Origin: an uncultured Campylobacterales bacterium
GTDB taxonomy: Bacteria; Campylobacterota; Campylobacteria; Campylobacterales; Arcobacteraceae
DNA length: 64,000 nucleotides
Assembly: GCA_947494995.1 (NCBI GenBank)
Contig: CANLWY010000002.1
Coordinates: 186,001 to 250,000, forward strand
Direction of reading: 5' to 3'
A program made the translations under genes and the position numbers. The notes below the pieces were generated by a model. The model did no database searches. It was not told where the DNA came from and worked only from the letters and a program-made list of their open reading frames with translations. Numbering within the stretch: position 1 is the stretch's first letter; each line of letters begins with the position of its first letter. Shown here piece after piece: positions 25,608 to 28,752 of this stretch.

Positions 25608-26282
25608 TTAATTTCTCCAAACAATATTTAAGTCATCTGTTAACTTTGATTTATCAAAATAAGCCTCAGAATACTTTAATCCTGATAAATTTGCTTCTGT
25701 CTCCAAGAAGTTTTGGATATAGTAATCTTTATTATATCCATTTGAAATTAAAACATTTTGCATATCATTAATATCTTTTTCATCTAATAAATCATTGTGT
25801 AGAGTTGTTCTAACCTCATACTCAATATCACTATTTTTTAAAAGATTTAGTGATTTTAAAAAGTCTTCATAATGATTTGATTTTGTAATCTCTTTAAATT
25901 TTTCTTTTGTTGCTTTAAAATCTATGGCAACATAATCAAGTAGATTTTCATTAAGTAGTTTTTTCAGTTCTTTTGGATTTGCACCATTAGTATCTAGTTT
26001 AATTTTAAAATCAAGTTTCTTAATCTCTTCACAGATTGAAGTTAAGTTATGAATTGTAGCCTCTCCACCACTTAAAACAACGGCTTCTAAAAGTCCTACT
26101 CTTTTTTTTAAAAATGAGTATAAGTCTTCTACTGTGTATAATCCAGCTTGTGAATTAACAATCTCTGGATTATAACAGTATTGACATCTCATATTGCAGG
26201 AATTAAACCAAACAATACAAGCTAAGTTATCTTTGTAATCTGTCGTTGTAAAAGGTGTTATATTATAAATTATCTTTTTCAA
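25608..26282 (-). CDS. nrdG: Anaerobic ribonucleotide reductase activating protein (radical SAM)
   Basis: A 224-residue radical-SAM enzyme. SCNMRCQYC supplies the C-x3-C-x2-C ligands of the 4Fe-4S cluster, and VVLSGGEATIH follows. It would cut SAM and place a radical on the conserved Gly of its partner. The start is a TTG at 26282 that overlaps the end of the small glycyl-radical gene by 20 bases, so the two are translated together. The partner Gly is encoded not in the large nrdD gene but in this small one. Confidence 0.9.
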   Translation of the reverse strand: MKKIIYNITPFTTTDYKDNLACIVWFNSCNMRCQYCYNPEIVNSQAGLYTVEDLYSFLKKRVGLLEAVVLSGGEATIHNLTSICEEIKKLDFKIKLDTNGANPKELKKLLNENLLDYVAIDFKATKEKFKEITKSNHYEDFLKSLNLLKNSDIEYEVRTTLHNDLLDEKDINDMQNVLISNGYNKDYYIQNFLETEANLSGLKYSEAYFDKSKLTDDLNIVWRN

Positions 26283-26421
26283 GGAATTTCACTCTTTGTT
26301 GGTGTTCACCTTTTTTTCCTATATTAAAGCTTTCAACGGGTCTATGGTAACCCATAACTCTAGTGTATACAATACATCTAGTTCTTTTTTCTTTTAACTT
26401 GTCATGCTCTAAGTTTTTCAT
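26263..26421 (-). CDS. Separate glycyl-radical segment of anaerobic ribonucleotide reductase
   Basis: A 52-residue protein whose core, CIVYTRVMGYHRPVESFN followed by IGKKGEHQQRVKF, matches the C-terminal radical loop of class III reductases (VYSRVxGYxRPVxxWNxGKxxEF). In those enzymes the Gly of RVxGY, here Gly24, carries the radical. The large nrdD gene stops before this segment. The small gene has its own ATG at 26421 with AAGGAT 6 bases before it, overlaps the nrdD end by 20 bases in a different frame and overlaps nrdG. An upstream in-frame ATG at 26448 is less likely. It would have to bind the NrdD body to complete the active site. Confidence 0.8.
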   Translation of the reverse strand: MKNLEHDKLKEKRTRCIVYTRVMGYHRPVESFNIGKKGEHQQRVKFLEKDNL

Positions 26422-28525
26422 TGTTATCCTTTTCATTAAGTTGTTCATTTAAAATTTCTTCGTCACATTTTGGACAAAACTCATACTCTCCATTAATATA
26501 TCCATGTTTAGGACAAATAGAGAATACAGGAGAAAGAGTAATATATGGTAGAGTATAATTTGATATAACATTTTTAATTAATTTTCTACAAGCTTCTGTT
26601 GAAGTTATTTTCTCTCTCATATAAAGGTGTAATACAGTACCTCCTGTATATTTTCCTTGTAAATCGTCTTGTAAATCAAGAGCCTCAAATACATCATCTG
26701 TAAAGTCTACAGGAAGTTGAGATGAATTTGTATAGAAAATATTCTTTCCAAACCCTGCTTGTAAGATATCGTTAAATCTTTTCTTATCTTCTTTTGCAAA
26801 TCTATATGTAGTTCCTTCTGCTGGCGTAGCTTCAAGGTTGTATAGATTTCCTGTCTCTTCTTGATAATGAACCATTTTATCTCTCATAAAATCCAAAATC
26901 TCTTTTGCAAACTCCATACCTTTTTGTTTAGAAATATCAAACTCTTTTTCTGTAAAGTTTACAATCATTTCATTAATACCATTAACACCAATCGTTGAGA
27001 AATGGTTATTAAATCCTGGAAGATATCTTTTTGTATAAGGGAATAGTCCTCTTTCATATAAATCGTTAACAAATACTCTTTTTTTCTCTAAAGTAGATTT
27101 TGCTAAGTCCATTAATTCTTCTAATCTTTTAAATAACTCTTCTTTATTCCCTCTATAAAGGTATCCAAGTCTTGCCATATTTATTGTAACAACACCAATA
27201 CTTCCTGTCATTTCAGCAGAACCAAAAAGTCCTCCACCTCTTTTAAGAAGCTCTCTTAGGTCTAATTGTAATCTACAACACATTGATCTAACATGTCCAG
27301 GTTTATATGCATCATCATTTGGGATTAAATTTCCATTTTCATCTTTTGTATATTGACTTCCAATAAAGTTTTGAAAATATGAAGACCCGATTTTTGCTGT
27401 GTTTTCAAATAATAAATCTGTATTCTCTCCATGCCAATCAAAATCTTCAGTTAAATTTACTGTTGGAATTGGAAATGTAAATGGTTGTCCTGTTTTGTCA
27501 CCTTCTGTCATAACTTCATAAAAAGCTTTATTAATCATATTCATTTGTTTTTGAAAAGCTTTATATGTCATATCAGTTAATGAATCAAAACCTTTTTCTT
27601 TAGCTTTTTCCAATAACTCTTCATCTTCAATATTTTTTAGAAGGTGTTCTTGGTTTCTTGTTGGAATTTGATCTTTTAAATCTTGAGGGACAGTCCAATC
27701 AATAGTAACATTTGTAAAAGGACTCTGCCCCCAACGTGCAGGAACATTTAAATTATAGATAAAACTTTTGATATTTTTCTTTACTTCTGTATATGATAAT
27801 TTGTCTTTGAAAACGTATGGCGCTAGATATGTATCAAAAGAAGAAAATGCTTGAGCCCCAGCCCATTCACTTTGTAAGATTCCTAAGAAGTTAGCCATTT
27901 GACCTAATGCTTCTCTAAAATGGTTAGGTGCAGTACTTTCTACTCTACCTCTTACCCCATTAAAACCTTCGTCTAATAGAACTCTAAGACTCCAACCTGC
28001 ACAATATCCACTAAGACAATCTAAGTCATGTATATGATAATCTGCATTTCTATGAGCATGTCCCTCTTCTTTTGAGTAGATTTTATCTAACCAATAGTTC
28101 GCTATAACTTTTCCTGCACTGTTATTAATAAGTCCTGCATGAGAATATCCCGTATTTGAGTTTGCTTTTATTCTCCAATCTGTACCGTTGATATACTCTT
28201 CGATTGTTTGTGTTGAATTAATATATGTAGTATCATCATTTAATCCTAATACTTGCTCTCTTTGCATCTTATGCATATGTCTGTATAACATAAAAGATTT
28301 CATTACATCAAAGTATCTTGCTTTAAATAATTCATTCTCAATTAAATCTTGAACATCTTCAACTGCTACAACTCTTTTTTTGTTTAATTCTTCTAAAACA
28401 TTTAAGTATACAACGGAATCATAAGTAACATGTACACTCTTAAAAGCTTTCTTGATTGCATCTTTAATTTTAAAGTCATGAAACTTCTTATAAGAGCCAT
28501 CTCTTTTTAAAATATTTTCTAACAT
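26402..28525 (-). CDS. nrdD: Anaerobic ribonucleoside-triphosphate reductase, body lacking the glycyl-radical segment
   Basis: A 707-residue protein. An N-terminal ATP cone (KRDGSYKKFHDFKIKDAIKKAF) is followed by the ten-stranded barrel with GYCAGWSLRVLL and the NSSQLPVDF loop. The C-terminus has the zinc site SICPKHGYINGEYEFCPKC, after which a normal NrdD continues into RVxGYxRP; here the frame ends about 20 residues later at TGA 26402-26404. The missing piece is encoded in the next gene. It reduces NTPs to dNTPs without oxygen. I prefer ATG 28525, which has AAGGA at the right distance, over ATG 28531, which abuts that signal. Confidence 0.93.
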   Translation of the reverse strand: MLENILKRDGSYKKFHDFKIKDAIKKAFKSVHVTYDSVVYLNVLEELNKKRVVAVEDVQDLIENELFKARYFDVMKSFMLYRHMHKMQREQVLGLNDDTTYINSTQTIEEYINGTDWRIKANSNTGYSHAGLINNSAGKVIANYWLDKIYSKEEGHAHRNADYHIHDLDCLSGYCAGWSLRVLLDEGFNGVRGRVESTAPNHFREALGQMANFLGILQSEWAGAQAFSSFDTYLAPYVFKDKLSYTEVKKNIKSFIYNLNVPARWGQSPFTNVTIDWTVPQDLKDQIPTRNQEHLLKNIEDEELLEKAKEKGFDSLTDMTYKAFQKQMNMINKAFYEVMTEGDKTGQPFTFPIPTVNLTEDFDWHGENTDLLFENTAKIGSSYFQNFIGSQYTKDENGNLIPNDDAYKPGHVRSMCCRLQLDLRELLKRGGGLFGSAEMTGSIGVVTINMARLGYLYRGNKEELFKRLEELMDLAKSTLEKKRVFVNDLYERGLFPYTKRYLPGFNNHFSTIGVNGINEMIVNFTEKEFDISKQKGMEFAKEILDFMRDKMVHYQEETGNLYNLEATPAEGTTYRFAKEDKKRFNDILQAGFGKNIFYTNSSQLPVDFTDDVFEALDLQDDLQGKYTGGTVLHLYMREKITSTEACRKLIKNVISNYTLPYITLSPVFSICPKHGYINGEYEFCPKCDEEILNEQLNEKDNNEKLRA

Positions 28526-28752
28526 ATACATCCTTTTAATAAGCGAATAATAGAGGTATTTCTCTTAAAAAATAATAATATGAAAAGTCACAAATATGTC
28601 ACAAATGCAAGGATTGAATAGTATAAATAATTTTTAATAATAAATATAATTTTGTTTTCTTATATAAAAAAATCAAAAATTTAATCAATAAAAAGTTAGT
28701 TTTGGATATAATATCTAATTTTTAAATAAATCATAAATTAGGAATGGCATAA
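28526..28752. other. Divergent control region between nrdD and sbtA-like gene
   Basis: No gene is seen. GTCACAAAT occurs twice in direct orientation (28587-28595 and 28598-28606), 11 bases apart, just upstream of nrdD; this could be a binding site for a regulator touching one DNA face. A -10 box TATAAT at 28707-28712 serves the sbtA-like gene on the plus strand. Confidence 0.5.

Follow-up and report, generated by a model that had tools for sequence, protein, structure and literature searches.

A class III ribonucleotide reductase with its glycyl-radical loop encoded by a separate small gene in Arcobacteraceae, other bacteria and phages

Class III ribonucleotide reductase (RNR) is a textbook case of an enzyme that keeps its radical on the catalytic chain, and oxygen cleaves it at the glycyl radical (PMC3019208; this and the other papers given by PMC number are cited from excerpts). 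For another glycyl radical enzyme, pyruvate formate-lyase (PFL), a variant truncated of its radical domain (residues 696-759) reaches wild-type activity once the small protein YfiD has been activated on it; only two such PFL spare parts have been validated, and parts for other glycyl radical enzymes may exist (PMC8683613). Here we describe a class III RNR locus in a 64,000-nucleotide stretch (the window, to which coordinates refer) of contig CANLWY010000002.1 (GCA_947494995.1) from a member of the Arcobacteraceae. The arrangement of its genes is confirmed: the catalytic subunit NrdD is encoded as a body without the radical loop, and the loop is encoded by a small gene of its own. Sequence comparison makes it very probable that the class III RNR here is a two-chain enzyme, composed of the nrdD body and a separate radical-loop protein of about 52 residues.

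The gene set lies on the minus strand in the order nrdD body, small radical-loop gene and nrdG, and each neighbouring pair overlaps by 20 bases. Its parts are as follows.

26402..28531, minus strand: nrdD body, 709 residues, class III RNR catalytic subunit without the glycyl-radical loop
27275..27280, minus strand: finger-loop double cysteine, Cys418-Cys419 in SMCCRLQ
26465..26515, minus strand: body segment with the putative zinc site, residues 673-689, CPKHG...CPKC
26402..26421, minus strand: overlap of the body end and the loop gene start, 20 bases, frame +1
26428..26433, minus strand: likely ribosome-binding site of the loop gene, AAAAGG upstream of the ATG at 26421
26263-26448, minus strand: radical-loop open reading frame (ORF), 61 residues
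26263..26421, minus strand: radical-loop gene, 52 residues from the second ATG, sequence MKNLEHDKLKEKRTRCIVYTRVMGYHRPVESFNIGKKGEHQQRVKFLEKDNL
26350..26352, minus strand: codon for Gly24, the predicted radical glycine in TRVMGYHRP of the 52-residue protein
25608..26282, minus strand: nrdG, radical S-adenosylmethionine activase, 224 residues, TTG start as listed

The 709-residue body is made up of an ATP-cone (PF03477, E 3.5e-16), a barrel, an MCCR finger loop and a zinc site, the last assigned to CPKHG...CPKC by analogy with class III RNR structures. It scored 1094.8 bits against NF006126 (cut-off 548), and its double-cysteine MCCR finger loop defines one of the two class III lineages (PMC9669993). 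The nrdD frame terminates after the zinc site, with CPKHGYINGEYEFCPKCDEEILNEQLNEKDNNEKLRA before the stop. In the Pfam scan the body matched positions 2-529 of the 562 of PF13597 (E 2.5e-162) and the match stopped there, and thus the loop is not on the chain of the barrel; positions 532-562 are carried by the separate 61-residue ORF (E 6.8e-7, 28.7 bits, cut-off 26.2). This 529/532 boundary bears out the initial annotation, which had placed the end of nrdD after the CPKC zinc site and the loop in a separate small gene. The second ATG of the ORF, at 26421, yields the 52-residue protein, in frame +1 relative to the body, and the window sequence indeed contains the start codon, ribosome site and Gly24 that had been described for it. 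The motif TRVMGYHRP is unchanged in 16 loop proteins of relatives that were compared, and by analogy with the NrdD family Gly24 is predicted to carry the radical. The nrdG product matched TIGR02495 (NrdG2; E 1.2e-58, 197.7 bits, cut-off 131.15), and the NRDD barrel domain and the NrdG activase of a class III RNR were thus both found with profile matches over the cut-offs. Both of the overlaps noted earlier were seen, the one between the loop gene and nrdG (26263-26282) given the candidate nrdG TTG start at 26282.

We then searched the genome assembly to which the window belongs (3.17 Mb, 31 contigs, 99.99% complete). At E<=0.001 the NRDD profile found two matches only, the body and the loop ORF, and no intact class III NrdD or second full-length copy, which had been sought as a possible objection to the split; a loose threshold of E<=10 added a third, weak match (E 0.163, 10.8 bits). 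One catalytic chain is thus encoded by two conserved genes, with no intact copy beside them. The genome also codes for a class I/II-type large RNR subunit (PF02867, E 8.5e-172).

Conservation in other Arcobacteraceae had been left as a point to check, and all 16 genomes of the genus examined have a split nrdD, one of them (G008) split by an in-frame TAA, so that the split is due neither to chance nor to sequencing error. An NRDD match was found in 87 of the 104 Arcobacteraceae genomes (17 being without) and in 219 of 398 genomes of the order sample, where, among the matches listed, an uninterrupted NrdD of this subfamily occurs only in G335, G461 and G529; some Campylobacterales groups, such as g43, have a different, continuous NrdD type. 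The fused NrdD of G461 (L184) lies inside a stop-to-stop frame of 922 residues, longer than those of its relatives. The loop profile matched 131 of 250 genomes, one of them the fused G335, and all 131 were also NRDD-positive, that is, they have the body. When named genomes were scanned with the loop alignment, at least 585 relatives were found, and the best 80 of these, which were taken further, belong to the Campylobacterota (Arcobacter, Halarcobacter, Malaciobacter, Aliarcobacter, Poseidonibacter, Sulfurospirillum, Sulfurovum, Hydrogenimonas, Campylobacter concisus and C. gastrosuis) and the Bacteroidota (Mariniradius, Algoriphagus and Flavobacterium). A body ORF lies within the stretch at 76 of these 80 loci, fused to the loop at none; L099, L108, L109 and L142 have no body in the stretch, with nrdG present at three of them.

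A Bacteroidota sample (n=395) contained 21 genomes with this NrdD type over the cut-off, 10 split and 11 fused. The Proteobacteria were sampled through plasmids. A related body was present in 30 plasmid records, and 13 loci were opened from the body or loop hit lists; a phylum-level search yielded genomes of the same order only. Split plasmid loci were found in Cereibacter, C. metallidurans, Aquabacterium, Paracoccus, C. necator (H16), Bradyrhizobium, Azospira, Shinella and Sulfuricurvum, including eight of the nine alpha- and betaproteobacterial loci opened, and fused ones in Acidiphilium, Actinomyces and Geoalkalibacter. The Thiothrix locus (L173) has a separate loop with a body broken in two pieces, and Allochromatium has a loop gene with no body within the stretch. 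The split NrdD thus extends beyond the Arcobacteraceae, across genera, families and phyla. The initial annotation had regarded the split as an obligate arrangement, a reading that is supported; it had foreseen neither this range nor the phage-borne copies described below.

To compare the junctions, loci were fetched, IMG/VR contigs excluded and identical junctions removed; the 169 junctions classed comprised 150 split and 19 fused ones, two of the latter from phage records. Relative to the body, the loop frame at the split junctions is +1 in 81, +2 in 37 and 0 behind at least one stop in 32. The two genes overlap in 90 cases and are separated by 0-30 bases in 36, by 31-200 in 13 and by more than 200 in 11, up to 852 bases, and the loop gene starts with ATG in 149 of the 150. 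A programmed frameshift or stop readthrough that joins body and loop into a single full-length NrdD is therefore very improbable. The loop does lie in +1 in the window and in those 81 junctions, and the window overlap contains CTT AGA, proposed in the initial annotation as a shift-prone context; in the window itself, a +1 shift may be compatible with the sequence taken alone. However, 37 junctions would require a +2 shift and 32 the readthrough of one to many stops, the gap exceeds 30 bases in 24 junctions and in some of them holds an intervening gene, the loop gene has its own ATG and a ribosome-site-like sequence, and phage copies of the loop occur without a nearby body. CTT AGA was found within the last eight body codons at only 13 of the 150 junctions, and no fixed frame with a conserved slippery site is shared by the relatives; the frame-0, +2 and distant layouts cannot be joined by such a shift, which thus fails as a general route. 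The three frame relations, the stops and the gaps of up to 852 bases exclude a single fixed frameshift as the general mechanism, and separate translation of the loop gene would explain the junctions where one fixed recoding signal would not. In some Campylobacterota (L042, L044, L045, L095, L110, L149, L151 and L159), NifU-like (NifU_N) and/or PAC_bac genes lie between nrdD and the loop gene, as judged from Pfam matches of one representative protein each. A tandem pair of loop ORFs, the second with unread bases in its motif, was also seen at L151:3982-4347, and G350 has two adjacent loop matches.

Purifying selection acts on the loop core in the frame of the loop gene. Over 38 codons pooled from the 16 genus genomes, the proportions of nonsynonymous and synonymous differences were 0.050 (pN) and 0.572 (pS), giving a rate ratio (dN/dS) of 0.048, and the two other frames contain 27 and 102 stops.

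We also calculated a quick tree of 56 bodies, thinned from 218, with the loop columns omitted (LG+G4, support by the Shimodaira-Hasegawa-like approximate likelihood ratio test, SH-aLRT, only). A supported clade of 41 rows contains 36 split and five fused ones, the latter being G335, G461, G529, Actinomyces and Acidiphilium, and the fused clade of Bacteroidota and Geoalkalibacter falls outside it. The split or fused label changes at least five times on this tree, with four changes forced by supported branches. The simplest reading would be an early split followed by several re-fusions in the five fused rows; there may also have been repeated independent splits, since the direction of change depends on the root. 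The interchange of fused and split states is as expected if the loop works with the body.

To find viral relatives, we scanned IMG/VR, whose records are of uncertain completeness and include some near-duplicates, with the loop alignment. As a result, 53 contigs were found, each carrying a separate small loop ORF; a body lies in the 4-kb flanks at L238 and L263 only. A search of the whole record, made for 50 of the 53, found a body over the cut-off in two (G945 and G970) and none in 48, although, given the uncertain completeness, absence of the body from a record does not mean absence from the virus; G944 gave a weak 27-position body match, and in G932 the loop itself fell under the threshold of this search. 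Ten neighbours from nine of the loop loci all matched phage families (terminases, head-tail adaptor, major head, tail, holin, endolysins and primase/helicase). The loop proteins matched phrog_4132, whose function label in PHROGs is "unknown", with E 4e-12 to 6e-8 for four of six and more weakly for the other two; in the same Pfam and PHROGs scans, at the thresholds used, they matched NRDD, phrog_4132 and NrdD families and had no match to the PFL family. Extra loop copies were also found in Campylobacterota chromosomes (four in G385, three each in G341 and G147, and others). Where examined, these lie in prophages: eight of ten neighbours matched holin, endolysin, major head, tape measure or reverse transcriptase, and the remaining two an unknown phage family and nothing (G261), respectively. 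An NrdD body is present at 82 IMG/VR loci, some of them duplicated, of which 59 are fused, 17 are split and six are without a loop nearby. Since a tblastn search of INPHARED with the loop gave a single weak match (E 0.05), the phage evidence rests on IMG/VR.

By analogy, the loop-only copies of phages probably do for NrdD what the T4 spare part does for PFL. They might instead act as decoys, but this is less likely, because phages need deoxynucleoside triphosphates (dNTPs). We lean somewhat towards a loop that is a mobile, interchangeable cartridge, an obligate subunit in the host whose phage and prophage copies would act in trans on the host body and keep or restore dNTP synthesis after oxygen cleavage; if so, phrog_4132 is a class III RNR spare part. 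That the host loop protein itself is a GrcA-like repair part, with another source for the radical of the body, is suggested by its size and phage carriage, which are like those of YfiD and Y06I (PMC8683613), but is scarcely probable, as the body has no RVxGYxRP-like loop and the genome no intact NrdD, which together make the role of the loop in the host obligate. For the phage copies, use as a spare part is likely. The separate, obligate, NrdG-activated and GrcA-like loop protein of the initial annotation thus gains support, at the level of sequence, from the varied frames, distances and stops, the start codon and ribosome site of the loop gene, the selection on the loop, the body present in 131 of 131 genomes, the nested fused relatives and the phage copies.

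Several viral loci showed further features. In the loop genes of L264, L266, L267, L268 and L273 (L266 and L267 being near-duplicates), a TGA coincides with the conserved glycine position of FNxGK, which would fit a reading of TGA as glycine, as in code 25 of Gracilibacteria/SR1. In a 196-kb phage record (G981), an insert containing a LAGLIDADG ORF interrupts the loop gene immediately behind the codon for the radical glycine (L377:587-1532), and the body, at a distance of more than 100 kb, contains an intein that has an HNH domain (L295:3001-5856). L326, L336 and L342 have a separate loop of the YSRVVGYFRPVQNWN kind or one distant from that of the window, which suggests independent splits in phages, L342 being an unsure case with a fragmented body ORF. 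Two prophage loop genes (L287:7872-8870 and L294:5179-6183) lie close to a phage reverse transcriptase (phrog_1423), a neighbourhood that presumably resembles a diversity-generating retroelement. The fused NrdD of phage record MT835493 (L282), with 810 residues, has a C-terminal extension resembling a glutaredoxin/NrdH domain by eye.

That nrdD is decaying or mis-sequenced in an organism that depends on a class I enzyme is the least probable explanation, for which the class I/II-type large subunit, the 17 of 104 family genomes without NRDD and a few loci with broken bodies such as that of Thiothrix might speak, but the split is kept over genera, families and phyla, in complete genomes from different assemblies, with the loop under selection and nrdG retained alongside, and a pseudogene or sequencing error was rejected on the conserved split and that selection.

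We next modelled the body and loop together, as a single chain (P0001) read artificially through the window overlap and folded twice with AlphaFold. Standalone loops were misplaced (mostly 23-34% identity) when aligned among diverse fused rows, and that alignment was dropped; the alignment of the second model (A5) was made without them, with paired fused phage rows. This model reached a mean predicted local distance difference test (pLDDT) score of 87.9 and a predicted template modelling (pTM) score of 0.84, with the loop blocks at pLDDT 78-92, except for the last block at 61, and the joint at 54. The best structural match by VIA-align was P. copri NrdD 8p2s_B (Z 33.7, root-mean-square deviation 2.5 A, 553 residues), followed by class III RNRs at Z 28-33 and glycyl radical enzymes, including PFL, at Z 18-19; the loop by itself had no meaningful match among solved structures. 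Residues 80-750 of the model were aligned on 85-735 of 8p2s_B, and since Gly711 of P. copri NrdD sits in domain 676-739 (PMC11226230), the loop (704-755) is superposed on its glycyl radical domain.

Some of these data weigh against the two-chain enzyme. In the first model (alignment A2, with the loops as unpaired rows) the body was folded and the loop had pLDDT below 50, and in the second the docking is partly built in by the chain join and the fused phage NrdD rows. The joined-chain model thus shows compatibility of the loop with the body, rather than binding in trans. A Shine-Dalgarno core match of at least four bases was found upstream of the loop gene at 138 of the 150 split junctions, compared with 12.2% of random positions, a figure inflated because the start was chosen by the same score, and the 150 junctions, distinct in sequence, are related to one another.

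With a two-chain enzyme, the nrdD body would fold into the ATP-cone, ten-stranded barrel and zinc site without the radical loop, and the separately translated loop protein of about 52 residues would dock in trans through the zinc end of the body into the barrel. NrdG would then abstract a hydrogen from Gly24, leaving the glycyl radical on the small chain, from which it would be handed to the finger-loop cysteine at each turnover. As oxygen cleaves at the glycyl radical, only the small cartridge would be lost from the split enzyme; a hit might thus cost just a cheap 6-kDa part while the 80-kDa body stays usable, and phages carrying the cartridge alone might keep the host reductase running.

A separate radical-loop gene is not mentioned, and phage loop-only copies for NrdD are not described, in the excerpts covered of the RNR literature (PMC9531940, PMC11528403, PMC4390871, PMC3019208, PMC2864759, PMC3653736, PMC9669993, PMC2795772, PMC11226230, PMC8683613, PMC3267527, PMC4520616 and PMC8463856). 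NrdDG of C. metallidurans is listed as Rmet_5137 and Rmet_5139, with one locus tag skipped (PMC2864759). According to the same paper, C. necator H16 needs NrdDG for complete denitrification, and its loss is rescued by vitamin B12; the loop gene of this strain has 66 codons (WP_011154154). In several plasmids the Prokaryotic Genome Annotation Pipeline (PGAP) labels a loop protein of 58-66 residues "nrdD"; one is a "hypothetical protein", and some have no annotation in the gene table used. The finding thus corrects the annotation of loop proteins, including phrog_4132, which has no assigned function. In the NrdD of A. eutrophus H16, Siedow et al. 1999, the one experimental study of an organism with the split, reportedly named Gly650 as the radical glycine; by hand count, residue 650 of the present 676-residue C. 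necator H16 body would be the zinc-site glycine, that of CPTHGY. Part of the novelty would fall if that study already noted the small gene. The split NrdD loops, those of phages included, provide a concrete candidate set of spare parts, and a conserved form of class III RNR with a detachable 6-kDa radical subunit opens questions on target recognition by NrdG, loop exchange between bodies and oxygen protection of the large chain.

Finally, in comparison with NrdD of the PF13597 family (NF006126/PRK08270 type; P. copri 8p23 series, T. maritima 4u3e), the enzyme has the same barrel, ATP-cone, MCCR finger loop, zinc-site cysteines, NrdG partner and loop motif, whereas the loop, here on a separate chain of about 52 residues, forms the C-terminal part of the one chain in the solved structures. 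Spare parts of the GrcA/YfiD type have about 125 residues. Like GrcA/YfiD of E. coli and Y06I of phage T4, the loop protein is a small, phage-carried glycyl-radical-loop protein that would complete a larger enzyme in trans, but its loop is of the NrdD and not the PFL type, it would be obligate in hosts where theirs are for repair, and it has about 50 residues where theirs are about 14 kDa (PMC8683613). The split class II RNR of Pseudomonas, NrdJa/NrdJb, likewise has two genes in one operon, both needed, but its small chain is a 229-residue redox-exchange domain and not a class III radical carrier (PMC4520616). Phage RNR genes are also known in pieces, such as nrdA of Aeh1 and nrdD with introns, inteins or fragmentation; the cases covered arose from mobile elements or fragmentation (PMC3653736), whereas the gene described here is a dedicated radical-loop gene conserved across phyla.

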